From assembly GCA_947247005.1 (NCBI GenBank), contig OX365948.1, positions 10,281,455 to 10,345,454 on the forward strand: 64,000 bases of DNA, given 5' to 3'. Position 1 is the first letter of the stretch; each line of letters starts with the position of its first letter. The notes beneath the pieces are model-generated. The model was not told where the DNA came from and did no database searches. It saw only the letters and a program-made list of their open reading frames with translations. Shown here piece by piece: positions 18,590 through 59,849 of the stretch. The position numbers were made by a program, and so were the translations under genes. The stretch is from Spisula solida (Eukaryota > Mollusca > Bivalvia > Venerida > Mactridae).

Positions 18590-20100
18590 CAAATTTCGAA
18601 ATCATAATCTACCAGACCTGGCGGAATCTGATGTTTACTTATTCGCATATGACACTAAAGTCTTAATTCAATACTATAAAAGAGACAAAGGACTGCGACA
18701 TAGTATTACTTCTGAATAACCTCAATTCTATGTCCACCTGGAGCGGCACATGGTTATTGAGATTCCACCAAGAAAAATGTAAACATATTACAATAGGGAA
18801 GAAGAGTGAAGAAGAACAACCCAACTACAAACTGGGAAGTAATACTCTGTAACATGTTCAGTCTGAAAAAGATATTGGTGTTACAATTGATGATCGAGGG
18901 ACTGAAGTTTGAAGAACATATTGGAGACAAAGTGAAGAAAGCCAACCAAATGTTTGCTATAATACTATCTAAACGACAAGACATTCATCTCTCTATACAA
19001 ATCACTAACTAGTACGACCCACCTTGATTATGCGAGCCACAACTGGTACCCCACTAGTGCCAAACTTTTGGATCAGATTGAGGGTGTTCAACGAAGAGCA
19101 CTGAAACAACTACATGTACAGGGATTTAAGGATCGGTTAAAATTACCAACACTTAGTTATAACTTTAAATTTTGGCGATTTCTGTGATACCTTAGGTTAT
19201 ATACTAAGCATGTTATACACTTGCACGTTTACTTTTTCCCATACTTTTTTCCATTAGTATACATTGAACATGTATATATCGACTTCAGCTGGGGTGTATA
19301 CGTCGATGACGACGTTTGGACAAAGTGACGACTTTAAGACACATTAATTGACGACTATAGGTCATACCATACCTAAAGTCGTCAGTCGTGCATCGGGGTT
19401 GTAAAATGCTTTATACCATTGGAAATAAACCACTGAGCAACATTAAAACTGTTTCATAGAACAGAGTGAGTAGTCGTTCCTGTTTCGTAAAGTATCTGTT
19501 TAGTTTGTGTACAAGCTATTGGAGATGCACAATGAAGGTGTAACTGGGTCGACCTGACGACTTTATGTCCTCGTACGTTAGGACACTTTCTTCATTTAAG
19601 AGCAAATTTTAAAGTGGAACTTTACTGGTATTTCATAATTATTGCCAATACATTTAAAAATTTATATCGAAATTGTTGTTTATAAATGACTGTTTACGCC
19701 CATATATCTGATTCATTAAAAATAATAAGCGCTTAAGGGGAGATATGATCGAGCTTTACAAGATCCTAACACGGAAGCATGCAACTTCATCAAACTTTGG
19801 AAAGATGTGGCACCTAAAACTGGTACCAGAGGACATTCACTAAAAGAAGAAACTCGTTCTCCATAAGAACTACCAACATATGGAACTGTCTACCATCCAA
19901 TGTTGCCAATGCCAAAAATGTGAACACTTTAAAGAACCGATTAGATAAATTGTGGCCAAACCAGGAAGTAGTCACCTCTGTAGAAAGAATTGGTAGCGGA
20001 ACGTTCAGAATGGAATATATGTACATGTATACTAGTGTATGCCTTGCACCGGGGGACACAAACTGAAGTCTGAAACGTTGGTCTCGCAAGCTTCTCTGTG
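18590..20100 (+). pseudogene. 5'-truncated LINE reverse transcriptase, copy 1
   Basis: Broken frames give the C-terminal half of a non-LTR reverse transcriptase of CR1/Jockey type. Recognisable pieces are an altered 'FADDTK'-like catalytic box (seen as LFAYDTKVL), LGS and VTIDDGLKFEEHIGD-like stretches, 'LDYASHNWYPTSA' and 'NSFSIRTTNIWNCLPS'-type segments. Frameshifts and stops are frequent. A ~570-bp block (19162-19729) interrupts it. Copy 2 at 31626-33215 lacks that block, so the block entered after the duplication or was lost from copy 2. Confidence 0.78.
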
Positions 20101-20119
20101 ATCTTTAGGAATCATACTA

Positions 20120-20530
20120 TTGTATATCATGAGTGGTGCGTGGTCGAAAGAGTAAACCGTCTTGGCTACGGATCGCAAGGTCCCTGGTTTGAATCCTGAC
20201 CCGGGCACTGGAACTTTCAGAAACGCTTTTCAGTGTTTCCCACCCTGCTCGAGATGATCTGGTTTGGAAACCCAGAGGTAGTCAGACTCGCTCGTATCGG
20301 TGCTATACACCCGGAACATTGAAGAACCAATGAATCTACTAGTATTTGGGAAAGTGCTAGGAAAGCGCACCAGGCTTTCTTGTATCACACAAAGTTTCTG
20401 TCTCTCTCGATGCCGGATGCCATTGGGGATTAAACTGAATGATCACGTACTTACTACCCATTTTGAATATATCCTAAAGACAGCTGAAATTTATATACAC
20501 ACGCAGGGACATTGCTTACAAGTATAATTA
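20120..20530 (+). mobile_element. tRNA-derived SINE-like segment, copy 1
   Basis: A tRNA-like head (gtggtcgaaagagtaaaccg, then a B box seen as ggtttgaatcctgacc) is followed by a body with 'agtcagactcgctcgtatcg'. The second copy (33225-33620) has a perfect B box, ggttcgaatcc. It directly follows the LINE remnant in both units, so the two may form one composite element. Confidence 0.6.
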
Positions 20531-21077
20531 AAATAGATTACACTCGTGTGATTTTTCAAATTTAAATCTTACGTAATCCACTCTAAAAATCCTGTGGGTG
20601 AACGAGTGGATCTATTTATAGTAAACTTGTGAGGTGGTTAGTATTTGAAAGCTTAATTTGTGACGCAATGTAATATTTTCAGCGTATGTATTAAACTCCG
20701 AGTTTTGGAAACGAAGTCGATCAACTTAATTCTTGTGTACTTTTATATTATGTTTGAAACATACGTGGAAATAAGAAGGACAGAGAAACGATAGATAACT
20801 GTTAACTTATCTAGGGTATCTGGTTATCTAAATATGTAAACTCATCAATTACACAAGTCGTACGGTTGATTTATGCAATTAATGGCATTTCAAAGCGTCA
20901 GAAGTGAAGGCCACTGCCAGAAACTCATGTGACAAACGAACATAAGAGCCCTAGACTAGGAATAAAATGACATCTCGGATAAATGTCTAGTGCTTTAATC
21001 ATAGACCACAGGAATTTGAAGTTCTACCAATAAAATATTATACAAGTCGGTCCATCACAAATCACTCTACATACATA

Positions 21078-21675: not shown

Positions 21676-21784
21676 TATATATAATACAAAGAACGCAACG
21701 CCTTTTTCCCTCTAAAATGGAATCCCGTAGCCTGTGCTAACAAAATAAAAGATACAAGCGATCAAGTGATCTCATTCGAAAACA

Positions 21785-23760
21785 CTTGAAAAAATAATTC
21801 ACAAGCACGCATACAACTTCCTCAAGTCCAACAACATTATTACCCCACTTCAGTCAGGTTTCGTTCCCAATGATTCAACTTCCAACCAACTTGTCTCTAT
21901 ATATAACTCTTTCTGTAAAGCCTTAGATGAGGGCAAGGAGGTTAGAGCTGTTTTCTGTGATATATCGAAAGCATTTGACCGAGTTTGGCATCGGGGTCTT
22001 CTACATAAACTGGAAACAAATGGGATTTCCGGTCAGCTTCTCTTATGGTTCAAAGATTATCTTTCTGGTAGAAGGCAAAGGGTCGTTCTTTGTGGTTCCT
22101 CTTCTGAAACTGTACCTATAACTGCTGGTGTTCCACAAGGTTCCATTCTTGGTCCCCTCTTGTTTATCCTTTATATCAACGACATCGTTACTGACATCGG
22201 TTCTAACATCCGTCTCTTCGCTGATGACACAAGCCTCTATATAACGGTTGATGATCCAATCAATTCAGCAATTGCTCTCAATACAGACCTCAATACTATC
22301 TCAAACTGGGCCGAAAAATGGCTGGTCGATTTCAATCCAAATAAAACAACTGCCTTGCTTATTTCTCGAAAACACAACAAGCCATTTCACCCCCCTCTCT
22401 CTATGAATAATACAATTATATCAGAAGTTAGTTCTCACAAACATCTAGGAGTTACATTCTCTCATGACGGAACTTGGCATGAGCACATCGACACAATGAG
22501 AAGGAAAGCATGGCAACGTATCAGTATCATGCGCTCACTCAAATGCATCCTTGATAGAAAGTCATTAGAAACTATATACTCGTCTTTCATTCGACCTCTA
22601 TTGGAGTATTCAGACATTGTTTGGGACAATCTTTCTCTCCATGATCAAAACGAGTTGGAGAAAATACAACATGAGGCTTGTAGAATCATATGTGGAGCCA
22701 CGAAACTTAACTCCATTGAGAATCTTCATAAGGAAACCTGCTTTGAAACTCTCAAACAAAGGAGGGAAAAACACAAACTAACACTCTTTTATAAAATGAC
22801 AAATAACTTATCTCCTCAGTATCTCAATTCTCTAGTACCGGAAATCGTAGGCGATACAACAACGTACAATCTGCGAAACGCCAACAACACGAGAAGCATC
22901 CCATGTCATACTCAGCTCTATGCAAACTCATTTTTACCATCAGCTGTTCATGCATGGAATCAACTTCCTCTGAACCACCGCAACTGCTCATCACTCAATG
23001 CTTTCAAAACCCAACTCAATGTTAATAAGCCCAAGGTCTCTTTTCATTACTACTCTGGCGACCGCAAACAGCAAATTCTACACACTCGTCTCAGAACCCA
23101 CTGCAGCAACTTAAACGAACACTTATTTTCTAAAAACTTGATACCGAGCCCTCTCTGTGAATGCGGCTTCATCGAGAATATTCACCATTACTTCTTTGAG
23201 TGTCACTTGTACCAGCAACAACGCAATGATCTCTTCGAGCTCATTCAACACCTTACTACACCTTCGCTGTCTACCTTTTTATATGGTGATCCAGTTCTCT
23301 CGAATGACTCAAACAGCGAAATTTTCGCACATGTCCAAAACTACACTAGATCAACAAATCGTTTTGATGCATAACATTCTTCTTTATTAATGCTATACAT
23401 GCAACTGAAATAATTTCTAATTATTGGCACAATGTATCAATCCACAAACACGTTTAGGCATGCTCATATTTTAGAACCAACTACACGTCCCGTTGGTATA
23501 TGTGACCATACCTCTATATATCTATATCTCTCCATCTTTTCTATCTCTATCAATCTGTCAAACACTCTTTTCCATTCTTTTCCCTCCCAAAATCATCATT
23601 TATGTACATAATTTCCACTGTTTACAACTTCATAAAGTTACCAATTATTCCCTGCTATTCATAAGGAACGAGTTTATAAATAAGCTTTGCTTTCTACTCA
23701 ATCCTTAATATGTGTAAATGAATGTTATCATATTATATGTTTATAAAGAAATAAATATAT
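21785..23760 (+). mobile_element. 5'-truncated non-LTR retrotransposon
   Basis: This insert begins abruptly inside a reverse-transcriptase reading frame and ends in an AT-rich 3' tail with aataaatata. The 5' truncation is typical of target-primed reverse transcription. Its coding part is nearly intact, unlike the LINE copies at 18590 and 31626, so it looks young. It is absent from unit 2 of the duplication. Confidence 0.82.
21793..23374 (+). pseudogene. LINE reverse transcriptase (C-terminal two thirds)
   Basis: One frame stays open to TAA at 23372-23374. Typical RT blocks appear in order: LQSGFVPNDSTSNQL, VFCDISKAFDRVWH (first catalytic Asp), ITAGVPQGSILGPLLF, IRLFADDTSLYI (catalytic ADD, Asp pair intact) and LGVTFSHDGTWHEHI. 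A C-terminal region follows with a Cys/His cluster (CECGFIENIHHYFFEC). The N-terminal endonuclease is missing, so the copy is not autonomous. It resembles Jockey/CR1-group elements; I cannot fix the clade. Confidence 0.85.
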
Positions 23761-25026: not shown

Positions 25027-26141
25027 GCTACATAATGTCATTTAAGGTTAAGTAATCGTCAACATTTACCAAAAATATCCTCCAGTAAATGTTTTGTAAA
25101 CGCTCCAACACCATACTTATAACACCTACATTCTTGGTAAAAAACAACACATTTGCTTATGATAAGAATAAACTAAACTCATAAATTTACTGGTTTATGA
25201 TTACTAAATTGCTATCGCTACTTTTCAAATTACTATTTCTTAGCTCATTTAAGTCGTCCTCTCATGACAGTGCTTTCAATCACAACCAATTTTAAATTTC
25301 CGAGGTGTGCTTAACTGATTTCCAGGTGTATATTATGATATCGTTATATGATCTATATGAAAGGTATGGGATTGAGTATTTATCCTTTTATAGTGTTACC
25401 AAAAATACATACCATCCGTATCTACAACATGTACCCATATAATCATGTCAACATTGAAGGGTATTTCCACCCAAACTAGGGTATTGTCAATGTTAAAACT
25501 AGTACGCAGTTAACAAGGATATTCTACTATCACAATTAATGACATTTAATTAGATCCAGGACTTTGGTGAGGTTGCACGACAGTATACTAAAAAGGTCAG
25601 TGTAGTTATATCAATGTGTTCGAAAATTTCAAACATTATTTCGGATATTTATTTAAATTCTTATTAATACAAACGTAGATATCTTACAAGGTACCAATGT
25701 TTGATAAAATCATAAATCAAATATTATGTAGTCGATAAATTTCTATTAAGTTGTCCTATTTACATATTTAAGTGCATAGGTACATAGTGTCGCTTGTGTT
25801 ACGTAGGCTACTTTGTTACTTTGTTCGAGTCAATTATATTCCCGAGTGTTTAGAACTACAATTAAATGAATACAGCTTACAAAATACGCATGAAAAATAT
25901 TTACGCGTATCATACCTGATAAATATAGTTAAAGTTGGTTTTCCAAATATGAATTTCGTCATATTATTATCAATATCACGGTCATAAAGGTCACCAAACG
26001 CATCGAAGCAGAAGATTATGTCTTAAGCAAACTCAGTAAGTTATACTCCTTATTGAAAGGAATGTAAACATATCGTGTTACCATTATGAACTATAGGACT
26101 AACTTGGAAAGAATGTTTGATATATACCGATTGTAGTCATG

Positions 26142-26150
26142 TATATAAAT
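26142..26150 (+). promoter_or_regulatory. TATA-like box, RHIM gene copy A
   Basis: TATATAAAT lies 127 bp before the start codon and is conserved at the same distance in copy B (35294). An alternative is an upstream untranslated exon ending at a conserved donor (ca|gtaagt, 26035), spliced to an acceptor at 26231. Both units keep both signals, so I cannot choose. Confidence 0.4.
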
Positions 26151-26268
26151 ATAATTGCGTATACGAAAAGCTACGGGTTGTATGAACGTCAAGGATAAAT
26201 AAATAAGCGTTTTCTTTCATTTCGATAACAGGAGGCATTTGTTACATAATAACCCATTCGTCGGCACT

Positions 26269-29200
26269 ATGTCGTCGGCTAGAGATAATGAATCAGAAAC
26301 CGAGGATGAGGTTTTCGAAGCAGCGAATCATCTCCCAGAAGAAGCCGAAGTGCCACGTGAACCGCTACTCGACGAGGACCAGGAGTTGACGTCCAATATG
26401 TCCCAAAGTTTTGAAGAGGAGGAACAGATATCCCCATTTCTATACGATGACAACCCGACAACAGCATCATCACCGCATCAAACAGAATCGTTATCACAAT
26501 TTGGACGCGGTGCTTCATTCTGCAGACATCGCAGCTCAATGACGAGAACGAAGGCGAAAGAACTGAAACGAAACGTTAAAGAATATAAACAACGTATTCA
26601 ATTTTTGGAACAAAAATTGAAAGAAACAGAGCAGGTAAAGTTCATGCCACAGCGTTAGTATGAACGATTTGGCAATACATGTAGATGTAAAATAAGTAGA
26701 TATATAGAAATGTCTGCTTTCCTGAGATATGTGTAAAAGACATTGCCTTGTACAAGCTTTATTTACGTGTTGTTCGTACCAATAGCAACTTATTCCTTTA
26801 TTTATAAACGTTGACAAAATATATCTTCATTTGTAGGCCTACATGTTGATACACGAGTAAGTTTTTGTCCAAAGTACATTTATCATGCACTCGTGAAATA
26901 CACAATTAACATAATATGCAAATTGATAGCTACTAGTTAAATTGAAATCCATACGAACGATATTCAATTTTAAATTTTGTCGTAACTCGTGAATAGGAAA
27001 TATTGAAGAGGACATGATATGTGTATATTGAAATGAATTCATGGCGTGAATATTAAAGTAAACTTCGAATAGTGGACCATAATGAAAATTGATTTGCCAA
27101 TTATGTTATCCACAGAAAATAAAGACGTTATTATAATTCCATATACATTGTAGTTTAAAATTTCACAAATTCACGATTTACTCGAAATGTCGACACTGAA
27201 ATGTCACTTTTCGTGCCTACTATAACTTGTTATTGGTGTTCCACTTTTAGAGAGTTGTCTCGTTGCTACAAGGAAGTCAGTACTATGTATATATTACTGG
27301 AGAATGTAAAAATGTTCTAGTTGGTAGTGGTAATAGCATAGTGGACGAACACCCAGTAGACGAGACGATGGAAGCAATTGCTGGTCTAGAAGAATTAATT
27401 CAAAAGTTGACATCAGCTGTAGATGTGAATATACAAGAAAGGGTCAACATTGAGAACAAGTTGGAGAAAACCGAGGTCAGCTTTATGTCATTTACTTGAA
27501 GTAAACGGTCATTAACTACTTTAAGATACTTTCGATTAGATGATCACAGAAAATATAGCTCAGATAAATATCAAATTTAGTTAATATTCGGTATATCAAT
27601 TTTAGACGATACTTGTTATTATCACGTGCGAACTTGGTAGTTAGTACATGCGCACGTGATACACCTGCACACTTGATAACTAACACATGTATACGTGGTA
27701 GTAACAGGTGCGCACGTGATAAATAACATATTTCCTGTGGTGTCCCCTCTATGCCATCGTAGTTTATATAATTAGAGAAAATATAGCTATAAATGTCGAA
27801 TGTAGTGACTGTTTTTTTTTACGTAACAAACATAACGGTTGTTTTCGCAATTTCTTGGTATCATTCGTACATGAAATATCGTGTCGACCATGTTTGTATA
27901 AGCGAACCTGTTGCCTTCGAACGGACAGCAAATGCTAACAAATATGATATTTTATCGGGTGATTTCATAATTCAGAACATCATATTTTATATAAAATTAT
28001 ATCTTGGTTTGGACCACTACCCAACCTCTCATATCAGCAAAAACATGAACTAAATTCCAGGGTGTCAATGTCATTGTACGTACAGGCCTATATGTTTGTC
28101 ATATTTACATATTTGAAATATCATTTGTATTTGAAAAACCTCTGATTGTTTAAGGTGTATTTAGAAGAATTAAGAAACTCAGTCAAAGTCTGCACAGAGA
28201 CCGTACACTCACACGACGAAACAAACGAGGCCAATATGTGTGATCTAAAACGCATGCTAGAAACCTTAACATCAGAACGGTCAGACCAGAATGTTATAAC
28301 TGAGGGTGTGGCCGTTTTGAGAACTCTAGATAAAGATACATTAACTGCAAACGAGTTTCCATCGGACGTGAGAAATCTGGCAAAACTAATGATGAAAAGA
28401 TTTGGTGAGTGGCATGTTCTATACCCTAATGATTTTCCTCTAAATAGCTGTTACCTCGATAGCTGGGTCTAAGCCACATTTATGGCGTTTTCTTAGTCAT
28501 ATAAGATAGAAAATTCATTTAAAAATCAATTTTCCAAGAAATAAGTACACTAATCAACCAGTACTAACGTGTTCTTCCTTAAAGGGCGGGGTAAAACTAT
28601 AAAAATCAGCAAGCCAGAAAAATTGCCACTTGGTTTGAACTACAAAATGTATCTGAGCTGTCTACCAGCAGAAACGGAGAAATGAGAATTATAAAAACAA
28701 ATTTCTAAAGACACAGCGCATACTTTAGTTTGAAAGTTGGTATACTTCTTATTTAGAACACAGGCTAAGATATCTGAACATTTCATTTCATTGTGACGCT
28801 TATAAAATTTAATGTGTTAATCCAAAAATGTTTTTGAAAACAGTTTTAAAAAATTCAAATCTGACAGTTGTTTCACCCCACAATCCATAAAGGCTTAATG
28901 GCCGTCCACCCGGATATTGGGTTCATGGACCCGGTCTTTAAGAATCTGACGATATCAACTAGCTTTCAATAGAACACACACGCAATATACTATACAAGGG
29001 AAACAACTCATATAATAACCATTGTGACAAAGTAGAGTTGTCTTTCTTAGACAATGATATTACCTACATTTGTACCTATACGCGATATTTATCATTATAT
29101 TTCTAGGATTTCTGACATGGCCACAGTTTGCGCGGCGCCTTGGTGTGAAACCATCTTCTACTACCTCTAACAAAGATCTGACCATAGAAAGTGGCATTGA

Positions 29201-29924
29201 TCAACACACGTGTGTCCAGATTTTGGTCCAGTTTCTACATTCTCCGACAAACAATGCTGACAAATTGATGACAATAATACATATGTACGACGAAGAAAAG
29301 ACCAAAGGTACAAAATAGTTTGTTCTAATTAATTCGGCTGATAATTACGTGCGTGCAATTATACTCATAAGTGTATCAATTAATTGTGTGTAGTGATTGA
29401 GATATAGCTCGCTGTTTCTGGTTTAAAAAAATGAATCGTTTCTCTGGAACTTGGTAAAATCCAAAATATGCAGTTTATCTCGTGTATTAATATTCTACGT
29501 TTCTATTTGGTCACTCCTGTATCAGATGTTGGCATGGCTACACTGCCAATTTCACAAGTTCTGTTACTATGATATAGTTTAACTTATCCATAGTGGACAG
29601 ACTGCACTTGAAACAATAATTTATTATTGTACATTGGATTTGTTTATTCCAGAAAAGATGGATTTGCTTCGGAGAAAGACAATTTGTGGCGATTCAAAAT
29701 ATGAGCCCTTTGCCGGTATAGTGGGAAACGGCACGCATGCTATGGGACATGGAGTTAGTGATATCTACAGACTACTTGATATTATCCTTAAAAGGGTTGA
29801 TCTCAATGATAAAAACATAACTGCCGTCAAGGGTATGACAACAGAAAACTATAAATTGTTAAAGGGCAATGTGAAAAAGAAGGAAGAACGCAACGTGATT
29901 GTTACCGAAGAAATGTTTGTTTAA
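26269..29924 (+). CDS. RHIM and death-domain adaptor, copy A (IMD/RIPK1-tail-like)
   Basis: Five exons join in phase: 26269-26634, 27251-27475, 28155-28404, 29107-29307 and 29653-29924 (TAA). All introns are GT-AG; the product is 437 residues. Residues 1-90 are acidic and Ser/Thr-rich; ~91-122 form a coiled coil (YKQRIQFLEQKLKETEQ). Exon 2 holds YYVYITGECKNVLVGSGNSI; its VLVGSGNSI (144-152) fits the RHIM consensus (V/I)Q(V/I/L)GxxNx(M/L/I) except that Leu replaces the usual Gln. Residues ~265-345 fit a death-domain fold: FPSDVRNLAKLMMKRFG, LTWPQFARRLGVK, then VQILVQFLH and a final helix. No kinase, membrane helix or signal peptide is seen. RHIMs assemble amyloid-like signalling filaments and death domains recruit partners, so an adaptor in innate-immune or cell-death signalling is inferred. 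Its tandem paralogue lies at 35421. Confidence 0.85.
28584..28941. mobile_element. TTAA-flanked insertion in intron 3 of copy A
   Basis: Copy A has TTAA at 28580-28583 and again at 28938-28941 around 354 bp. Copy B shows a single TTAA at 37707-37710 with the same flanks, a clean empty site. TTAA duplication is the mark of piggyBac-type insertion. The ends (agggcggggt and, in reverse, agaccgggtc) are only loosely inverted. Confidence 0.65.
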
Positions 29925-29945
29925 TTAAGAAATAATGAATATGTA

Positions 29946-30891
29946 TCTTTGTCTTATCGTAGAATAAAGCACAAGTTCGGTGCGTAGTAATGAAATCACG
30001 AGTGCGTAGCATCCGATTAAGTGACCGTGCTTTATTATAAATAAAACACACGTACATATTCAATATTTCGATTCTAACATAGCCAATATTCCGCATTTGA
30101 CAACACAACCGTTGAAGACATAATATGAACTAAGGCACAGCCTATTTTAGCGAATTATATCTTAAATTGTTCATTTTCATAATTTTGATCAATTCTCACA
30201 GCTACATGTCAGTATTGAAACACAGCAGTAGACACTTGTCAGAAGTCCTTTATTATTAGTAACATGATCATCCAGTACAGAATAATTTAGAATTGTAGTC
30301 AGTATAAAATTTGTGACATTTTGGGTACGAAGTAACGGGGACAATACGAACAATACGAACCTGCTTTCTTTTTTGAGTTCACTGTATAACTACGTTGATT
30401 ATGTGTATAATAATACGATTTTCCTTGTTTAGAACAAGTACTTTCATGGCGTAATCCGTTGATCAATAACTGATTCTATGCCGGCTGTCATATTCTGTGT
30501 TTTCTCTCTATTTTCGAAGCGTTCCAAGATGGCGGTCGATCAAAGTGCTATACGAAGCACAGAGTATTTATCTCCCTTATCAAAGTGTATTCTAGATGGG
30601 TCTACTAGAGTTTTGGAATATTTTTAATCATCATTAAAATAAAATTTATGAGCTATAGAATAACGCATTTTAGGTAACTTTTGTTATTCTATTGGCGGCC
30701 ATTTTTCAGTATCTTTCTGTCAGTGCGAGACTGTAACACAAATTGTCTGATCCATAAGTGAATTCAAACTCTGACCAAACCACGTGACACGTTGATTTAA
30801 TGCGAAATTTATTCGGGCGCCTCGCGCCCAAAAAGTTCGCTTTTAACCGCTGCACTATTTTCTTCCGCGAAATGCTAAGTTATTTGCCGTA
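29946..30891. mobile_element. Insertion in the 3' flank of copy A
   Basis: The sequence after the stop codon matches copy B up to 'gaatatgta' and resumes at 'gctgtgttttatcggtaatt'. The ~946 bp between is absent from copy B (38690). It contains a local hairpin (aataaagcac ... gtgctttatt, 29963-30038) but no clear inverted ends or coding frame. It lengthens the probable 3' untranslated region of copy A from ~0.4 to ~1.5 kb. Confidence 0.6.
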
Positions 30892-31041
30892 GCTGTGTTT
30901 TATCGGTAATTTATGTACACCTTGGTTTGCTCTTTGTGTAGGAGAAATTGTTGGTTGTGTTTGACTCGTGTATCACCTACCTCTGCTGTGGATGTGGTGA
31001 TTTATTAGTTGTATCAAATTAATGCCAGTATGTTTGTTTCC

Positions 31042-31200
31042 TATATGCGGCAGAAGATTAACGTGGTGGATTCCGAGTCACTTGTCTCTCGTCAATGTGG
31101 GTTCGAACCAAGAAGCCATTGAATCGGCTTGGGATAGATCTACCGTGCTATATATGACCAACAAGAAGCAACTTGGAAGAAACAGCATGTAGATAGAAAC
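31042..31200 (+). mobile_element. tRNA-derived SINE in the 3' flank of copy A
   Basis: It is missing from the matching place in copy B (near 38871). Inside, gtggtggattccgagtcact and a B box gggttcgaacc are spaced as in a tRNA promoter. The junctions are AT-rich and were not resolved to the base. Confidence 0.5.
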
Positions 31201-31383
31201 AGCTGTTTCGAAAAGTAGATATATATTATTTTATCTATAACCCAGTATACTTATATATGAAGCGTATGACTGTACATACACTTATTTATATGACGTTGTG
31301 CAATAATTTTCTTGTCTTTATTGTCTGTGTATTTTAATATATTGTGCCAAATGAGACTACAGTATGTATGTATAATTATTATG

Positions 31384-31389
31384 AATAAA
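31384..31389 (+). terminator. Polyadenylation signal, RHIM gene copy A
   Basis: AATAAA in a block (gactacagtatg ... gaataaagtacaattatg) that is conserved after copy B too. It implies a ~1.5-kb 3' untranslated region, including the two insertions. Confidence 0.5.
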
Positions 31390-31625
31390 GTACAATTATG
31401 TTAACCAGAAACATGCATATTTGGTGTGCACTATATCAATGACAAAACATCACTTATAGTATATGTGGTGCTCTCATATAATTGAGCTGGGTGTCGGATA
31501 TAACACAACTGTGTGTGGAAATAAGTGTAATACGTCGGACGTACGACTTTCATATTGAGACGCTTGCCCGAAGTTTTATCTAATTAACGTGCGTGGTTCT
31601 TGGCCTTCTGCTGTTTATAATATTC

Positions 31626-33215
31626 ATGAATAATCTACCAGACCTGGCGGAATCTGATGTTCACTGCTTTCTCATTGAGTCGATCCCCTAAGAGATAAAA
31701 ACCTAGCATGCACACTTCAAATTGTTTGGTCTGCAACTAAATATCATTTTCTGACAGAGAAATAACTGAACTACAGTAAAATGAACCATTTTTGCAATAA
31801 AAAAGCTTTTATTTACTGTGAAGCAAGTACCAGTCAAGAGGCTTCGTCATTCAGAAACTTTCTCATCGACCCGATCCCTCTGATTGGTCAGTCTATGATT
31901 AACCCAAAGACTGAATTATTTTATGAAACACAGTGGTAACATAAAGTTCGTTCATCATAGATACTATTCACAGAATTTAATTATTGTGGATAAGTATGTT
32001 GACAAAAATATGGACAAAACAAAAACCCATGGTTACAAGCTTAGGTATTACTTCTCGCCAAAAAGGATTTTTCAGGGTTTATGCACATTTTTTTGCTGTG
32101 ATGACAGGAAACGGTCCATTTTCAAACTTGTGTATGTTTTGGAAAGGAACCATCGCTGCGCGTGTTTATATTCTGCCAAAATAATTAGGGCTCGGGTCGA
32201 TGAGAAGGATCGGGTAGATCGGGATGAGAATCAAGTATATTCGCATATGACACTAAAGTCTTCAATACTATAAAAGACACAAAGGACTGCGACATACTTC
32301 AGAATGACCTCAATTCTATGTCCACCTGGAGCGGCGCATGGTTATTGAGATTCCACCAAAAATTGTAAACATATGACAATAGGGATCGAAGAAGAATGAA
32401 GAAGAACAACCCAACTACAAACTGGGAAGTAATAGTCTGCAACATGTTCAGTCTGAAAAAGATATTAGTGTTACAATTGATGAGGGACTGAAGTTTGAAG
32501 AACATATTGGAGACAAAGTGAAGAAAGCCAACAAATGTTTGCTAAAATACTATCTAAACGACAAGACATTCATCTCGCTATACAAATCACTAACTAGTCC
32601 GACCCCATCTTGACTATGCGAGCCACAACTGGTACCCCACTTGTGCCAAACTTTTGGATCAGATTGAGGGTGTTCAACGAAGAGCACCGAAACAACTACC
32701 TGGATTTAAGGATCTTAATACCCGAAACGATTGAAGCGGTTACAATTACCAACACTTAGTTATAAGCGCGTAAGGGGAGATATGATCGAGCTTTACAAGA
32801 TCCTAACAGACAAATATGACACGGAAGCATGCAACTTCATCAAACTTTGAAAAGATGTGGCACCTAAAACTGGTACCAGAGGACATTCACTAAAAATCTA
32901 CCCTCAACAATGTAAAACTCACTAGAAGAAACTCGTTTTCCATAAGAACTACCAACATATGGAACTGTCTACCATCCAATGTTGTCAATGCCAAAAAATG
33001 TGAACACTTTAAAGAACCGATTAGATAATTTGTGGCCAAACCAGGAAGTAGTCACCTCTGTAAAAAGAGTGGGTAGCGAAACGTTCAGAATGGAATATAT
33101 AAATTATATTATGTATACTAGTGTTTATGCCTTGCGCCGGGGGACACAAACTGAAGTCTGGAACGTTGGTCTCGCAAGCTACTCTGTGATCTTTAGGAAT
33201 CATACTATTGTATAT
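31626..33215 (+). pseudogene. 5'-truncated LINE reverse transcriptase, copy 2
   Basis: It matches copy 1 at 18590-20100, starting from the same 'aatctaccagacctggcgga', so the truncated LINE existed before the duplication. It is split at 31661-32237 by a block whose ends share 'ttctcat...cgatcc' in inverted orientation, probably a DNA element. It keeps segments lost in copy 1, for example gacaaatatgacacggaagc. Multiple frame breaks show it is inactive. Confidence 0.78.
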
Positions 33216-33224
33216 CATGAGTAG

Positions 33225-33620
33225 TACGTGGTCGAAAGAGTAACCGTCTTGGCTACGGATCGCGATGTCCCTGGTTCGAATCCTGACCCGGGCACTGGAA
33301 CTTTCAGAAACGCTTTTCAATGTTTTCCACCCAGCTTGAGATAATCTGGTTTGGAAACCAAGAGGTAGTCAGACTCGCTCGTATCGGTGCTATACACCCG
33401 GAACATTGAAGAACCAATGAATCAACTAGTATTCGGGAAAGTGCCAGGAAAGCACACCAGGCTTTCTTGTATCACACAAAGTTTCTCTCACCCTCGATGC
33501 CGGATGCCATTGGCCAATTACGCCGGAAATAAAAACAAATGATCACATACTTACTACCCACTTTGAATATATCCTAAAGACAACTGAAATACATAAATAC
33601 ACAACCAGGGACATTGCTTA
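33225..33620 (+). mobile_element. tRNA-derived SINE-like segment, copy 2
   Basis: The tRNA-like head ggtcgaaagagtaaccgtct and a perfect B box (ggttcgaatcc) are followed by 'agtcagactcgctcgtatcg'. It is the counterpart of 20120-20530. Confidence 0.62.
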
Positions 33621-33889
33621 CAAGTATAATTAAAATAGATTAAACTCGTGGCGTTGATCATTGGGGAATATCCAGTGACTTTTCAAAGTAAAATCTTACG
33701 AATTCCACTCTAAAATTCCTGTGGGTGAACGAGTGGATCTATTTATAGTAAACATGTGAGGTGGTAAGTATTTGAAAGCTTTTAAACGGTTACGCTATGT
33801 TATATTTTCAGCGTATGTACAAAACTCCGAGTTTGGTAACGAAGTCGACCAACCTAATTCTTGTGTATTATTATATTATTTTGAAAACA

Positions 33890-35290
33890 CGCATGTTAAA
33901 TGTATAAGACACTCTATATTAACGTATGTAAAAGGAGTAAAAGTGTTGTCGCTCACACATATCATATCGTTCGGCCGATTAACGATGTTACCACGGTAAG
34001 CGTAAAACGCACTAGTCAAATTCTACCCTGAGACCTAATACTTTTCGTATCTATTATCCAATTTTAAATATTTAAAGCTTGTAATGAAGCAGAGATATAT
34101 GTCTGTCTTTTAATACAAAATTCATCACGATACCCGAATTATTTAATCCACGGCGACGAGTAAGAATCTGTTCCGCGTAAAAGTAAGTTTAAAGTATCCC
34201 ATTTTTTAGCAAATAAAAATTCAATCAACGGTCGAAAATCATCAAATATTAATCAAGTTTCGATCGATTTTGTTCATTTAAGCTTGTTTTAAAAGCTAAT
34301 ACTTTTTGCGAACTGTACAGGGAAGGCACAAACAGTGTAGAAACCAAATGCGTTCGGTTGGAAACCTAGACCGAACTCGCGTTCCATGTGAACTCGCCCT
34401 AAAAAGAGACAATACGTCAGATTCTATTTATACTTGTATTGTGATATCGTTTTATAAATGATCTATATGAAAGGTATGTGATTGAGTGCTACCAAAAATA
34501 CACACCTGCCGTATCTACATGTACTCATATAATCGTGTCAACATTGAAGGGTATGTCCACCCACAAACTAGGGTAGGTTCAATGTTAAAACTAGGAAGCA
34601 GTTAATCAGAAAAAATACTCAAGGATTTTCTACTATCACAATTAATGTCATTTAATTAAAGCCGGGACTTTGGCGAGGTTGTACGGGAGTATACTAAAAA
34701 GGTCAGTGTAGTTATATCGATGTGTTCCAAAATTTCAAATATTTCGGATATAGTGGATGTTAGATTTTCAAGACACTTACCAACTTTCAATAAATTAACT
34801 TTCGCGTGTAGGCGCTATATAAATATTTTCAATTATTATTACTTGATAAAATCATAAATCAAATATTATATAGTCTACAAATTTCTATTAAGTTGTCTTA
34901 TCTAAATACGTAAAGTACATAGGTACATAGTGTCGCTCTTGTTATATACGTGGGGACTTTGTTTGAGTCAATTGTATTCCCGAGTCTTCAGAACTACGAT
35001 TTTAAATAACTATATCTAACGAAATACGCATGAAAAATATTAAACGTGTCATACCTGATAAATATAGATCTAGTTAAAGTTGGTTTTCCAAAATATAAAT
35101 TTCGTCACATTATTATTAATGACACGGTCATAAAGGTCACCAAACGCATCGAAGCAGAAGAGTATGTCTTAAGCAAACTCAGTAAGTTATACTCCTTATT
35201 GAAAGGAATGTAAACACATCGTGTTACCATTTAGTGTGAACTATAGGAATAACTTGGAAAGAATGTTTGATTCATAAACATTTTGTAGTC
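33890..35290. other. Upstream region of RHIM gene copy B
   Basis: No coding exon is seen. From 34440 onward it aligns with 25330-26140 upstream of copy A. A conserved piece (ggtcaccaaacgcatcgaag, 35136) ending at a donor (ca|gtaagt) may be an untranslated exon. Two GGGACTTT motifs, at 34664 and 34953, resemble NF-kappaB half sites and are altered in copy A. Confidence 0.4.
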
Positions 35291-35293
35291 ATG

Positions 35294-35302
35294 TATATAA
35301 AT
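35294..35302 (+). promoter_or_regulatory. TATA-like box, RHIM gene copy B
   Basis: TATATAAAT lies 127 bp upstream of the ATG, as in copy A. An extra upstream ATG (35398-35400), absent in copy A, opens a short frame that overlaps the true start in another frame. Confidence 0.4.
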
Positions 35303-35420
35303 ATAATTGCGTATACGAAAATCTATGGGACGTATGAACGTCAAATATAAATAAATAAGCGTTTTCTTTCATTTCGATAACAGGAGCTATCTGTTACATG
35401 ATAACCCATTCGTCGGCACT

Positions 35421-38400
35421 ATGTCGTCGGCTAGAGATAATGAATCAGAAACCGAGGATGAGGTTTTCGAAGCAGCGAATCATCTCCCAGAAGAAGCCAA
35501 AGTGCCACGTGAACCGCTACTCGACCAGGACCAGGAATTGACGTCCATTATGTCCCAAAGTTTTGAAGAGGAGGAACATATACCCCTATTCCCAAACGAT
35601 GACAACCCGACGACAGCATCATCACCGCATCAAACAGAATCGTTCTCACAATTTGGACGCGGTGCTTCATTCTGCAGACATCGCAGCTCAATGACAAGAA
35701 AGAAGGCGAAAGAACTGAAACGAGACGTTGAAGAGTATAAACAACGTATTCAATATCTGGAGCAAAAACTGACAGAAACAGAACAGGTAAAGGTCATGTT
35801 ACAGCGTTAGTATAAACGATTTGGCAATAGATGTAAAATAAGTAGATAGATAGAAAAGTCTGCTTTCCTGCTTTAAATGACATTGCCTTGTACAAGCTTA
35901 ATTTACGTGTTGTTCGTTTCAATAGCAACTTCCTTTATGTATAAACGTTGACAAAATAAATCTTCATTTGTAGGCCTACATGTTGGTACACAAGTAAGTT
36001 TTTGTCACAAGTACATTTATCATGCACTCGTGAAATACTCAATTAACATAATGTGCAAATTGATAGCTACTAGTATTCAAATTGAAATCATACGACATTC
36101 AAATTTTATAATTTGACGTAACTCGTAAATAGGAAATATTGAAGCGGATATGTGAATATTGAAATGTATTCATGTCGTGAATGAATATTGAAGTAAACTT
36201 TGAGTACTGAACCATAATGAAAATTGATTTGCCAATTATGTTATCCACAGAAAATAAACACATTATTATAGTTCCTTATACAGTGTACTTTAAAATTTTC
36301 ACAAATTTACGATTTACTCGAAATTTTGACACTGAAATGTCACTGTTCGTGCCTATCACGTGTTACTTGTGTTCCACTTTCAGAGGGTTGTCTCATTACT
36401 ACAAGGAAGTCAGTACTATGTATATATTACTGGAGAATGTAAAAATGTTCAAGTTGGTAGTGGTAATAGCATAGTGGACGAACATCCAGTAGACGAGACG
36501 ATGAAAGCAATTGCTGGTCTAGAAGAATTAATTCAAAAGTTGACATCAGCTGTAGATGTGAATATACAAGAAAGGGTCAACATTGAGAACAAGTTGGAGA
36601 AAACCGAGGTCAGCTTTATGTCATTTACTTGAAGTAAACGGTCATTATCTACTTTATGATACATTCGATTAGATGATCACAGAAATTATAGCTATAAATA
36701 TCAAATTTAATTAATACTCGGTATATCAACTTTAGACGATACATGTGATTATCACGTGCGAACGTGGTAGTTATTACATGCGCACGTTATAGCTAACACC
36801 TGCGCACGTGATTAATAAAAAAGTTCCTGTGGTGTCCCCTCTTTGCCACCGTAGTTTATATAATTAGAGAAAATATAGCTATAAAATGTCAAATGTAGTT
36901 AATGTTTTAACTTTTTAGGCTTTACTTTGAAAATACGACAACAATTTTTACGTTACAAACATAACGGTTGTTTTCGCAATTTCTTGGTATCATTCATGCA
37001 TGAAATATCGTGTCGACCATTTTTGTATAAGTGAACCCGTTGCCTTCGAAAGGACAGCAAATGCAAACAAATATGATGTTTTGTTGGGTGATTTTATAAT
37101 TCAGAACTTAAAATATTTCATATAAAATTATATCTTGGACCACTACCCAACCTCTCATATCAGCAAAAACATGAACTAAATTCCAGGGTGTCAATGTCAT
37201 TGTACGTACAGGCCTATATGTTTGTCATATTTACATATTTGAAATTTCATTTGTATTTGAAAAACCTCTGGTTGTTTAAGGTGTATTTAGAAGAATTAAG
37301 AAACTCAGTCAAAGTCTGCACAGAGACCGTACACTCACACGACGAAACAAACGAGGCCAATATGTGTGATCTAAAACGCATGCTAGAAACCTTAACATCA
37401 GAACGGTCAGACCAGACTGTTATAACTGAGGGTGTGGACGTTTTGAGAACTCTAGATAAAGATACATTAACTGCAAACGAGTTTCCATCGGACGTGAGAA
37501 ATCTGGCAAAACTAATGATGAAAAGATTTGGTGAGTTACATGTTCTATAACCTAATGATTTTCCTCCAAATAGCCGTTACCTCGATAGCTGGGTCGAAGC
37601 CATATTTATAGCGTTTTCTTAGTCATATATAAGGTAGAAAATTCCATTTAAAAATAAATTTTCCTAGAAATAATTACAAAAACAACCAGTACTAACTTGT
37701 TCCTCCTTAAGAATCTGACGGATATGAAACAGCTTTCAGTAGAATACTATACAAGGGAAACAACTCATATAATAACAATTGTGGCAAAGTAGAGTTGTCT
37801 TTCTTAGATAATGATGTTACCAGTACTTATACGCGTATATTTATCATTATATTTCTAGGATTTCTGACATGGCCACAGTTTGCACAACGCCTTGGTGTGA
37901 AACCCTCTTCTACTACCACTAACAAAGATCTGACCATAGAAAGTGGCATTGATCAACACACGTGTGTCCAGATTTTGGTCCAGTTTCTACAGTCTCCTAA
38001 AAACAATGCTGACAAATTGATGACAATAATACATATGTACGACGAAGAAAAGACCGAAGGTACAAAATAGTTTGTCCTAATCAATTCGGCTGATAATTAA
38101 GTGCGTGCAATTATACTAATAAGTTTATCAATTAATTTTGTACAATGATTGAGGTATAGCTCGCTGTTTCTGGTTTAAAAAAAATGAATCGTTTCTCTGG
38201 AACTTGGTAAAATCCAAAATATGCAGTTTATCTCGTTTATTTGAAAATATTCTACGTTTCTGTTTGGTCACTCCTGAATCAGATGTTGGCATTGTTACAC
38301 TGCCAATTTCACACTCTGTTACTTAGATATTGTTTAACTTAACCATAGTGGACAAACTGCACTTAAAACAATAATTTATTATTGTATTTGTTTATTCCAG

Positions 38401-38672
38401 AAAAGATGGATTTGCTTCGGAGAAAGACAATTTGTGGCGATTCACAATCTGAGCTGCATGTTGGTATAGTGGGAAACAGCGGGTATGATATGGGACATGG
38501 AGTTAGTGGTATCCACAGACTACTTGATATTCTCATTAAAAAGTTTGATCTCAATGATAAAAACATAACTGTCGTCAAAGGCATGGCTACAGAAAACAAT
38601 AAACTGCTCAAGGACAGTGTACATAAGAAGGAAGAAAACAACGTGATTTTTACCGAAGAAATGTTTGTTTAA
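35421..38672 (+). CDS. RHIM and death-domain adaptor, copy B (canonical RHIM core)
   Basis: Five exons mirror copy A: 35421-35786, 36384-36608, 37281-37530, 37859-38059 and 38401-38672 (TAA). Exon lengths and phases are identical; the product is 437 residues. The RHIM core reads VQVGSGNSI (residues 144-152), a full match to the consensus, with Gln145 where copy A has Leu. The coiled coil (~91-122) and death-domain-like region (~265-345; WPQFAQRLGVK) are kept. Exons 2 and 3 each differ from copy A by about two residues. Exon 5 differs by more than twenty, nine of them within residues 363-377 around a conserved GIVGN. That glycine/asparagine-rich patch could be a second amyloid-type motif, but this is weak. 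Introns are shorter and lack the TTAA insertion. With no kinase domain, the protein would act as an adaptor, by analogy with insect IMD. Confidence 0.87.
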
Positions 38673-39031
38673 TTAAGAAATAATGAATATGTACCTGTGT
38701 TTTATCGGTAATTTATGCACACACCTTGGTTTGCTCTTTGTGTTTATAGGAGAAACTGGTGGTTGTGTTTGACTCGTGTATCATCTACCTCTGCTGTGGA
38801 TGTCGTGTTCCGAATAATATTTATTGGTTGAATCAAATTAATGCCAGTATGTATGTTTCCTATATGCGGCATTATTATTATTATTTTATCTACTATAACC
38901 CAGTATACTTATACATGAAGCGTATGTCTGTACGTATTAATATGACGTTGTGCCATAATTTTCTGATGTTTATTGTCTGTGTACTTCAATATATTGTGCC
39001 AAATGAGACTACAGTATGTATAATTATTATG

Positions 39032-39037
39032 AATAAA
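39032..39037 (+). terminator. Polyadenylation signal, RHIM gene copy B
   Basis: AATAAA about 360 bp after the stop codon, in the block shared with copy A. Confidence 0.5.
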
Positions 39038-39511
39038 GTACAATTATGTTAACCGGAAACATGCATATTTAGTGTGCACTATATCAATGACAAAACATCA
39101 CTTATAGTACATGTGGTGCTCTCATATAATTGAGTGTCACATATACTGAACATAACTGTGTGTGGAAATAAGTGTAATAATACATTAACTCGGACGTACG
39201 ACTTTCATATTGAGACTTTGTCATCTTGAGAACTCGGATTTTTGTTAATCACTGAGTTGATAATTTCGTAAACAGTTTTATGTGTGTATTAAAACATATG
39301 CACAAAGGTTAACTTGTAGTAAATCGCAAAAGAATCAATGAAAAAATAGAAGGTTTTATAAACAACATTCATAAAGTCTATTTGTATGCGCTGTGCCCAC
39401 CAGTAGTCTATTGGACGAGATACAAACAGTTGCCACCCACCAGTAGCTAGATGGTGGGTACATTTGTACATTAATTACCCCCATATAAAAAAGTTCTACT
39501 ATTTTTGTCCC

Positions 39512-40004: not shown

Positions 40005-40430
40005 ATATTCACCGAACAATATTAACCACGCGTGTATTAACGAAATCGTATACATGTACAAATGTACAATGTAATTACAACGTGTGTTAAATCGTATAAT
40101 GTTACACTCATAATTAATCACAGTCTATACCAACTTGGAGTTTAAAAATCTTAATTATGCAAAGAACAAAACGGTTTAAAAGATGACTAATGTCAAAACG
40201 AATGTAAACATAAAACCAACAAACCGGTTTTGAATTTAAGCTATTAATAGCAAACATAAAACCATGCAGGCGTAAATCCAATACGAACTATTGAATACCT
40301 GTATGAAGTGTACGGTGTAGTGACGGTGAATTGGTATTTATAAGTAGATTATTGAATGAAAACGTTTGTCGTGTTTAAACAATCTTCTAAATACTTTACT
40401 ACATAGTTTTGAGTTTCGTCATTTAAAATC

Positions 40431-43396
40431 ATGGCGAGTAATGAGACGGTTGATGGTGAGACGAATGAGCCTGTGCCTGTTGTAGAACCTGTAGCAGTAG
40501 AACTCACAGAGATTCAATGGAATACTGGTGACACGGACATAAATACATTAGAAAATGGATCAGGATTACCACAAGTTGTTAAATTTGAGGGAGAGACAAG
40601 TTCGTCCCTGCCACCGGGGCTGAAAATCTACGCCGAACAACCGGTATTGTTTCACACACGCACGTGTAAAAGACATGTGAAAGCCCGGACAATTTACCAT
40701 GACAGGAATGGACCGTACTATGAAGTTGGACAGACTTTAGATATACCTGATGATTTTGCTGGTAAGTTAGTTTTGCGTTACAATTTAAAATAACTTGTTT
40801 TAGCTTATTTATCAGTTTATAACGCTGTAAAGTGTCCGCACTGTCAAATCAGCATCAGCTTAAATCAGCACTACAATCAATGTTATTGATTTCCTTCCTC
40901 GAACTCAAACAGCCTGATTTAGTGTACAAAGATGTGTATCACTACTAGGTTTGGTCGGATACTAGTATGGTGCACAGTGGTACAGAATATGTGCCCTACG
41001 TGATTATTTAGAATGTATTAACTGTTTGTGTAGTATGATGTACAATAAAAATCCAAGACAACACTTCATCAACACTTCATCAACACTTCATCAACACTTC
41101 ATCAACACTTCATCAACACTTCATCAGTTCATTATGAGGAATAATTCTTGAACATTACCTCAATTGAAACATTACTATTATGTCAAGAAATAAAATTCCA
41201 CACGTGAACTCTGGAAGGCTGGTGCACTTGGTAGTGTAGCTGGATTTAAAGCGAACCAATGAAAATCAACATTATGATTCTCGTTTTAATTCTTGACTGT
41301 GAGGTGGTCTTATTATAGAGATGGTCAGTCAGTGGGGTTATACAGTATTAACTATGCTTACCTATAAACTATGATAGGACAGGCATGAAACGCCTGACTA
41401 CTTGGATGCTCTGAGATCGAGAAGTCTGTTCAAATCGTTCAGGCTCCTCCTTTATACCCTGTTGTTTCTAGTATTACTTTACCCTCGATAACTATATATA
41501 TATATATAAGTAATATTGCTAATCAGTACTTTGAATGGCACGCAAAGAACGAAGGATACGTTAACAATGGCCATAAACATCAAACACATTCCTCTTGGTG
41601 AAGGTCACCTCTTGTAAACGTTTATTAACCGCCGATGGGAGTAACCAATCCCATTTTAATAAAGATACGCCCGCTAAACTCCTTTTCGTACGTTTTAGTT
41701 ATTCAGTCAAACAGAATTACTACTGGTGCTAGAGGGAAATAAGATTCGTCGTCCAAGTTAAATCAAAATTTCGTTGCTAAGTCAAATAACGTATCTAAAG
41801 CGTTCCAATGAAGAAGGTGGGACAATGGCTATATATATATATATATACGGTGTTTTGTTGTATTGTTAAATGCTGTAATAACGGCTATGTTAGAATCGAA
41901 ATAGTTAATCTTACCTGTGTTTTATCTATAATAAAGTATAGTCTCTTGTTCGGATGCGCACATTAAAACACTAGTTTGTAAAACTCGTGGTTTTGCTTTA
42001 TTCTTTGATAAAACACCAGTATAGCACGGAGAATTTGACACGATCCTGGCCTTTATGCATGAATATATTACAGGGTTCTTGTGTTGAATATATAATTTTC
42101 CGCGAGCAAATCGTGCAAAATCGGTCCTTCAGATGTGTGTTAGTATTACACCTCGAGCATCTTCGTGATACTCCCCGCTTATGAAAACACACAACCGGGG
42201 ACATTACTTTAGACAATAAATCAACCGTGAAATTATGCTAATAGAAGTTCGAGAGTCGTGTCAAATTCTCTGGACTATACATATTTATCATGTCTTAACA
42301 CATACCATAACTAATTGATTGTGCTCATTCAGAATCGTTTATACTCGCACATATTAATACTCGACCAGTATAGAATGTAACATTGTGTATCATTTCAGGC
42401 TGGTTCGAGATCGTACCTCCAGATTTTGGAAGAGCACCGGTGTTCCGGACAATCGGGCAGTTAGCGGAAGTAAATCCTCGAAAGTTCTTCACGCGCAGCA
42501 ACATCCGCGCCATTCGAATAGAAGAGGATGCTAATGGAAACACAGAAGGAAGTGACGAGACCAAGGGTCAAGGTGAGGCTCAAAGTTTTAAAGAAAGGAA
42601 AATCTTGGCCGGTTCTATTTTGACTGTTAAAGGAACGTTTGCCGCCAAATGGCAGACGACAGCCCAGACTGGTTTACTGAAACGAAAAAGCAAAGAATGG
42701 ACGACGGTAGAGATGATATATATGAAATGTATAGACACTGACGACATGGAAATCCTGGTTCCTATGACGGCGAGGGGAAAGTTTAACATAGTGTACGAAA
42801 AAGGGATCAAAGACGTGAGAACTGTTTACAGAATGAAAGATATCGTGTCTGACTTTGAGGTTCCTTTAAAAGTGAGGATGGTGTATGGAAAGGCTCCGGT
42901 CGTTCCGTGTATATTCACTGGTATGTTAGCTTTAAAAGACAAGGCCAGAGAAGACACAGTAATAGCAAGTACTGTTTTAAATAAGAGAAATGTATTATTT
43001 GAACTTCCGGTGTCAACAAAGTGCAGTATTAAGACAGCAGCGAATGAGTCGGATTATGAAAATAGAAGAACTTATATAGACGCTCAATTGCTATGTAAGA
43101 AATATGCGAGCGCCTACGGGAGCTTGATCAAGCTTTCACCGGAACAGGATACTGACCAGCAGATGATTCAGCATATTCCAACTGAAAGAAAGAAAACACG
43201 AGACGAGAGTTTGAAAACTCTTGATTTGATTACAAACATTAGTTTAACAGACGATGAACCACGTGACTATTTCTTGGAATCGTCTGATTCTGATTCGATT
43301 CAAAGTGGAGAGGTCACGCCTTTGGGATTTGGCGAAATGATGGAACTTCGAGAAATTGCTTTACCGCGAACGAGTCAAGCATTTAGTAACGCCTAA
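40431..43396 (+). CDS. CABIT-domain protein 1 (THEMIS/GAREM-like)
   Basis: Two exons, 40431-40761 and 42399-43396, give 442 residues; the intron is GT-AG and splits the Gly codon of 'AGWF' in phase 1. The CABIT domain covers roughly residues 45-320. It begins with LPQVVKFEGE; the first signature is LDIPDDFAGWFEIV and the second is MKC followed by ILVPMTARGKF, fitting the family pattern hxC...hxLPhxxxGxF. The C-terminal ~100 residues are polar, with an acidic Ser-rich patch (ESSDSDSIQSGE), and look disordered. CABIT proteins are cytoplasmic signalling adaptors (THEMIS in T cells, GAREM with GRB2), but no proline-rich SH3-binding tail is obvious. The paralogue at 55739-59803 shares the same first-exon length (331 nt) and intron position. 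Confidence 0.86.
41060..41125. repeat. 11-bp tandem repeat in the CABIT 1 intron
   Basis: Six perfect copies of aacacttcatc. Simple AT runs lie further on in the same intron (about 41495 and 41828-41849). Confidence 0.9.
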
Positions 43397-46938: not shown

Positions 46939-47473
46939 ACATGCACACGTTGAATTGTCAACCATATTCGTTTGAACTTCAGTTAAAACACGTTTATTAT
47001 CTGTTCAGTATCAACACAAGTTAAAATTGTTTCATTTTAGAAGGATTTAATCATATTGTTTAATTTTCTTTTATTATTTTTCTTGAAGGAAGCACACTTC
47101 AAAAAGCATCAAGGTAAGTTATTGTTCACAATTAATGACATTTAAGTATTTGTTTGTTAATAAGGAAAATAAGCCAGTCAATTGCGTAGGAAAGTTTACA
47201 AAGAATTGTCTTTCTTTAGACTGACATTTTGAGACATAAATCTAAACCGTAGTCTATGTTTGATAAGTTATTATATACTCTTCCGCGACATTAGCCTTCA
47301 CAGGAGGATGTTGTACGTTGCTTACGAAGGGACAAATGTGTACTGCTTATTTAGTAATTACTCGAATCTTGTTAGGTTTACTGTCCACCAATAGTGTAAG
47401 CCTAAAATGCATACACCCCTATACAAAAACCATTGACTTTTCACACACTAATTCAAAACATTTTCATTCACAG

Positions 47474-59803: not shown

Positions 59804-59849
59804 GGTTACTGTATTTATACTTAGTTCAATATCCGCTTCATAAATATTT

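Follow-up and report, generated by a model that had tools for sequence, protein, structure and literature searches.

Proteins that combine a RHIM with a death domain are known chiefly from the immunity of insects and from the control of cell death in vertebrates. Insect IMD joins a cryptic RHIM to a death domain, whereas RIPK1 carries its RHIM and C-terminal death domain behind an N-terminal kinase. Here, we describe two tandem genes in a 64,000-nucleotide stretch of the genome of the bivalve Spisula solida (assembly GCA_947247005.1, contig OX365948.1, positions 10,281,455 to 10,345,454 of the forward strand; we refer to this whole stretch as the window and give positions within it). The two genes are probably copies of a kinase-less RHIM/death-domain-like adaptor-scaffold gene that would work like IMD or the RIPK1 tail.

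The closest described systems each share part of this architecture. RIPK1 homologs have been reported from the zebra mussel, Lingula and the lancelet, that of the zebra mussel having a kinase, a RHIM and a death domain, and, according to the part of that study cited here, the kinase-free C-terminal half of RIPK1 activates NF-kB on its own, in the case of the zebra mussel protein in human cells and in a RHIM-dependent manner (PMC12119088). This half, including that of the zebra mussel, resembles the window genes in the order of its elements, with the RHIM preceding a C-terminal death domain, and by analogy we regard the zebra mussel fragment as the nearest tested counterpart of the pair. By contrast, RIPK1 has its N-terminal kinase, whereas none was found in the window genes, whose RHIM is flanked by coiled-coil-like stretches. 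Insect IMD, which we liken to them by description, is also a kinase-free adaptor in which an amyloid motif precedes the death domain; the window genes differ from it in their canonical V-Q-V-G tetrad (in copy 2), their two coiled-coil-like stretches and a tail that extends past the death-like domain. A kinase-free Imd with a death domain has also been published from nemerteans; in the part of that work cited here, a RHIM was not found in those nemertean data, and neither Imd nor RHIM-bearing PGRPs are said to have been found before in molluscs or brachiopods (PMC9835746). TRIF (TICAM1), finally, is likewise an adaptor with a RHIM and is distinguished by its TIR domain, which the window genes lack; the same genome holds a TIR-RHIM locus on another contig (C9). 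A preliminary description of this DNA had proposed an amyloid-signaling adaptor family outside insects. This proposal remains plausible, but a pairing of RHIM and death domain beyond insects already has a precedent in the RIPK1 homologs (PMC12119088). In our searches of the openly licensed literature, we found no kinase-less RHIM/death-domain adaptor family with the layout seen here.

Two intact genes in tandem

The + strand of the window carries two intact genes arranged head to tail (copy 1 and copy 2), each with five exons and a coding sequence of 1314 bases (stop included) for a protein of 437 residues. All internal junctions in both copies are GT-AG, with intron phases 0,0,1,1; exon count, protein length and phases all agree with the preliminary description. 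The two proteins are identical at 391 of 437 residues and display the same layout: an acidic N-terminus, a coiled-coil-like stretch, the RHIM core, a coiled-coil-like stretch, a death-domain-like helical domain and a variable tail. The coiled-coil-like stretches were assigned by eye, without a coiled-coil program. Exon 1 (26269..26634 in copy 1, residues 1-122; 35421..35786 in copy 2) encodes the acidic N-terminus and a coiled-coil-like stretch. Exon 2 (27251..27475, residues 123-197; 36384..36608) holds the RHIM of copy 2, or the RHIM-like segment of copy 1, together with the second coiled-coil-like stretch. Exon 3 (28155..28404; 37281..37530) contributes coiled-coil-like sequence and possibly helix 1 of the death-domain-like region, the bulk of which lies in exon 4 (29107..29307; 37859..38059), and exon 5 (29653..29924; 38401..38672) encodes a fast-evolving C-terminal tail and the stop. 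A search of the 10-kb flank on each side of the window revealed no further copy.

Just 5' of each ATG lies a strong-looking splice acceptor that the preliminary description had not noted, placing the starts of the first coding exons at 26232 and 35384. As judged by a check of sequence and frame, these exons probably include a short 5' untranslated region (UTR; 26232..26268 in copy 1 and 35384..35420 in copy 2, both on the + strand). A donor is found ~200 bp upstream of each acceptor, such that in copy 1 an upstream exon would end at 26035. Because an upstream exon joined at this position shows in-frame stops in both copies, with no in-frame Met beyond the last stop, it would be non-coding 5' UTR in each of them.

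We take the tandem genes to be real genes because their coding alignment is gap-free, their frames and splice sites are kept, and exons 1-4 have changed more slowly than the introns. Not a single insertion or deletion separates the copies in 1314 coding bases, compared to 26 such events across the four introns, and base differences amount to 40 of 1042 in exons 1-4 versus 157 of 1884 aligned bases in the introns (Fisher p 1.5e-6). Overall, the copies differ by a nonsynonymous divergence (dN) of 0.051 and a synonymous divergence (dS) of 0.096. Exon 5 departs from this pattern: 36 of its 272 bases differ, which exceeds the intron level (p 0.012, uncorrected), with dN 0.143 and dS 0.160, and the tail is therefore relaxed or diversifying. 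A glycine-rich stretch, GIVGN....MGHG, is common to exon 5 of both copies.

The duplicated block extends from ~25331 to 31561 and from ~34437 to 39216, the block of copy 1 being longer owing to additional sequence in intron 3 and 3' of exon 5. Between the copies, the introns have diverged by a Kimura two-parameter distance (K2P) of 0.07-0.11, and this divergence of 7-11% would be larger than expected for alleles. The preliminary description had called the pair freshly duplicated; the duplication itself stands, but its freshness is only relative, as an intron distance of this size means that it is not very recent.

The RHIM segment and a distant paralog

RHIM proteins share the core motif [VI]-Q-[VIL]-G-x-x-N-x-hydrophobic, which we adopted as the strict RHIM core. 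The tetrad at its heart is given as V/I-Q-V/I-G in the part of PMC12119088 cited here. In copy 2, residues 144-152 (36447..36473, + strand) read VQVGSGNSI and match the strict core, as do 7 of 20000 shuffled versions of the copy 2 sequence. Copy 1 reads VLVGSGNSI at the corresponding place (27314..27340, + strand), lacks the tetrad glutamine and fails the strict core; the VQVGSGNSI that the preliminary description had placed in both copies is thus present in copy 2 only. Against the Pfam RHIM model (PF12721), whose curated gathering cut-off is 20 bits, neither copy exceeds the cut-off: a 51-residue segment of copy 2 scores 13.6 bits, and copy 1 gives no match, either at full length or as a segment. 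A search of the whole genome with PF12721 gave four matches at E <10, none above the cut-off or credible by eye; this search also failed to list the window genes and is hence insensitive. Likewise, a RHIM-like expression applied to the 28 death-domain loci of the genome gave nine rows, none of them credible by eye.

A degenerate DNA search of the same genome with the pattern N-[VIM]-Q-[VIM]-G-x-x-N returned 115 matches versus 91 in a reversed control, that is, no overall excess, and 22 of the 100 matches listed fall in one tandem array on contig C12. A first pattern search had given four other places (L001, L002, L004 and L005), whose frames were read. Upon inspection of the flanks of 33 listed matches, picked by eye from their residues, two were credible (L074 and L077) and 31 were not, again by eye. 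At the first of the two credible matches, on contig C2, we joined by hand-picked splice sites a distant paralog of 468 residues (L084; exons 2132-2584, 2926-3231, 6211-6436, 7049-7234 and 7793-8028), which also has five exons with phases 0,0,1,1. In order, it contains a coiled-coil-like stretch, a RHIM (VHVHSPINIQIGDHNSM), a coiled-coil-like stretch and a domain resembling copy 2 exon 4. Its RHIM reads NIQIGDHNSM, including IQIGDHNSM at the strict core, and scores 15.4 bits with the Pfam RHIM model as a 50-residue piece and 13.4 bits within a 152-residue frame.

When copy 2 was compared exon by exon to the paralog, none of 2000 shuffles scored as well for exon 4, 18 did for exon 2 and 95 for exon 1. 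In addition, tblastn with copy 2 gave E 0.002 across paralog exon 4; the whole-protein BLAST value of 2.6e-8 is inflated by the coiled coils, being computed without composition correction or filtering. A hidden Markov model (HMM) of the genome's own death domains ranked the exon 4 frame first among the L084 frames (11.8 bits, E 4e-4), followed by an unrelated frame at 7.1 bits. We conclude from these comparisons with the C2 paralog that layout, RHIM and domain all predate the tandem pair. For copy 2, the RHIM reading is thus upheld by its motif, by the sub-threshold Pfam segment and by a paralog with a more canonical RHIM in the same place; copy 1 has the segment, but with the tetrad glutamine missing.

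The tandem copies differ by a single codon in the RHIM tetrad, encoding Q in copy 2 and L in copy 1. The paralog on C2 and the C9 locus both retain the glutamine (a comparison of three sequences), which suggests that copy 1 lost it, and the function of its RHIM is probably altered. When natural tetrad variants were introduced into human RIPK3, most of them reduced NF-kB activation and two eliminated it, and none of the variants named in the cited part of that study alters the glutamine (PMC12119088).

The death-domain-like region

We compared the death-domain-like region at the level of profiles, using 28 death-domain matches from the same genome that were reoriented and aligned, death domains being the sole helical family compared. 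In hhalign, the two copies score 21.6 against these 28 domains, a value that none of 500 shuffles reaches (best 18.2), and windows placed before the region score 9.3-12.8. Upon inclusion of the paralog, the score of the three copies rises to 28.35 (E 2.8e-5) over 44 columns, again with 0 of 500 shuffles reaching it (best 16.8). Sequence searches of the PDB with the full protein, the domain and the RHIM segment gave nothing relevant, and a search of a database of 5.8 billion proteins yielded no homologues of the full copy 1 protein or of copy 2 exon 2 or exon 4. The preliminary description had predicted a death-domain fold here. We consider such a fold likely, and hold this view with fairly high confidence: the profile-profile comparison with the 28 domains favors it, whereas neither the Pfam Death model nor a profile search of the PDB does.

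Weighing the alternatives

Several results weigh against the reading of the pair as RHIM/death-domain adaptors, most of them bearing on the helical domain. Pfam Death (PF00531) matches neither copy nor the tested paralog exon. The hhalign score of the two copies lies below those of all 28 leave-one-out death-domain controls (32.9-81.7), and the signal is centered on approximately residues 284-300, such that windows from residue 301 onward score 9.3-10.1, like the rest of the protein. The plain HMM of the genome's death domains gives the copies 5.5 and 5.8 bits, with 2 of 500 shuffles scoring better; AlphaFold on exon 4 alone gives an uninformative model of three helices (pLDDT 53); and paralog exons 3 and 5 do not resemble copy 2 in sequence, since 1488 and 1766 of 2000 shuffles, respectively, do equally well. 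The exon-3/4 domain could be another small helical domain, in which case the protein would be a RHIM scaffold with coiled coils and some other output, a reading that we consider unlikely but that deserves the most weight among the alternatives. In line with it, the segment TWPQFARRLGV / TVNEFADKLGV also looks helix-turn-helix-like, the death-domain signal vanishes in windows that exclude it, and the PDB profile search returned four weak matches, none of which is a death domain and two of which are helix-turn-helix-like, with a transcriptional regulator (E 0.46) and a Cro-like antirepressor (E 2.1) matched over this segment; for the paralog exon, IF2_N appears at E 0.069. Against it, the three-copy alignment spans 44 columns and runs past this segment, at a score that none of 500 shuffles reaches, the paralog exon is recognized by the genome's own death-domain HMM, and RHIM and death domain are already known together in IMD and RIPK1.

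The RHIM, too, can be questioned. The full-length Pfam scan of copy 2 (18 families listed) does not include it, and every RHIM score in the family is below the gathering cut-off. If one adds that copy 1 lacks the glutamine and that the DNA motif is common by chance, as the reversed control and the C12 array illustrate, the VQVG core might be a chance match in an ordinary coiled-coil protein. We regard this as very improbable, since the paralog carries a more canonical RHIM in the same place within the same layout and since shuffling so rarely produces the strict core. It also counts against our account of copy 1 that all tetrad variants tested in human RIPK3 still supported ZBP1-dependent cell death, according to the cited part of the study (PMC12119088); a changed tetrad therefore need not mean impairment. 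Equally improbable, in our estimate, is that the genes are kinase-less remnants of RIPK1 homologs or possess an unrecognized upstream kinase exon. The existence of published spiralian RIPK1 proteins with kinase, RHIM and death domain (PMC12119088) and the splice acceptor preceding the ATG would fit this idea. Yet in-frame stops interrupt the exon that would be joined upstream, and Pfam scans of both proteins contain no kinase. Nor do nine selected + strand frames, of which four lie between the transposon frame and copy 1 and five between the copies, show a kinase match at E 0.1, in agreement with the absence of a kinase noted in the preliminary description. Moreover, the C2 paralog also begins with its own ATG coiled-coil exon, and by eye no kinase-like frame lies upstream of it in L084 among frames of at least 45 residues. 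PMC12119088 recognizes RIPK1 homologs by a homologous N-terminal kinase domain, and neither gene displays one.

A TIR plus RHIM locus and a model for signaling

The second credible match of the RHIM pattern search lies on contig C9 (L085/L087; G000:C9:4652300-4656100 for L087, - strand). There, a 721-residue open frame contains a TIR domain that matches Pfam TIR_2 at E 1.9e-4 and 22.3 bits, under the cut-off of 28. Three TICAM2 sequences top the PDB matches of this domain (E 2e-5 to 6.5e-5), ahead of TIRAP at 0.23; a TICAM1 chain is absent among the PDB matches listed. The TIR domain is followed by glutamine-rich sequence and then, after ~1 kb and on a separate exon-like frame, by a RHIM (INVYQAQNVQIGDHNLT) that scores 14.0 bits with the Pfam RHIM model, under its cut-off. 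The two frames would belong to one transcript, and from its sequence the locus is possibly TRIF/TICAM-like and a candidate upstream RHIM partner of the tandem genes. In parts of the literature, TRIF/TICAM is described as lacking outside chordates, or TRIF-like TIRs as confined to jawed vertebrates.

If the tandem genes indeed encode kinase-less RHIM/death-domain adaptors, a mechanism can be envisaged by analogy to IMD and RIPK1. The coiled coils would make dimers or trimers, and an upstream RHIM protein, for which the C9 product is a candidate, would seed cross-beta assembly of the adaptor RHIM. Once clustered, the death-like domains would bring in a partner with a death domain, for instance FADD, and the output would be caspase-8-like or NF-kB, as for IMD in flies or the RIPK1 tail in vertebrates. 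Copy 1, which lacks the RHIM glutamine, would probably act as a tuned or impaired partner (a modifier or decoy) rather than as a second full adaptor. A signaling role of this kind for the pair would follow from the likeness to those systems. More tentatively, and with doubt prevailing over expectation, we propose that the TICAM-type TIR plus RHIM adaptor on C9 may nucleate the kinase-less RHIM/death-domain adaptors and pass the signal to death-domain partners, a TRIF-like route in a protostome host.

Surroundings of the pair

Downstream of the pair, the window contains open frames with CABIT domains at 40413-43393 (+) and 55742-59848 (-). When four pieces of these were tested, 42374-43393 and 55742-56674 scored above the Pfam cut-off, 59435-59848 scored below it and one was unmatched. 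An inverted pair of frames at 47267-48469 (+) and 52529-53578 (-) encodes Ras-association domains above the Pfam cut-off, and its DNA is ~92% identical across 1070 bases. Upstream of the pair lies a reverse transcriptase frame (21770-23371, +; Pfam RVT_1), and repeated DNA is common to 18640-20759 and the inter-copy stretch 32238-33886. Patterns of tandem-repeat arrays appear at 15141-17984, 57557-58543 and 58826-59488, as seen by self-alignment without a repeat finder.

Discussion

In the literature that we surveyed, the record of RHIM amyloid signaling outside vertebrates and insects is thin. Here, a probable kinase-less RHIM/death-domain family, a natural pair of copies that differ at the tetrad glutamine and a TIR-RHIM locus come together in one genome, and with them it would become directly testable how old amyloid-based innate signaling is and how it is wired. 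If the proposed route from the C9 adaptor to the tandem genes is true, the RHIM-based connection of TIR adaptors to death domains would predate chordates, and the tandem copy with the altered tetrad would naturally regulate the amyloid.

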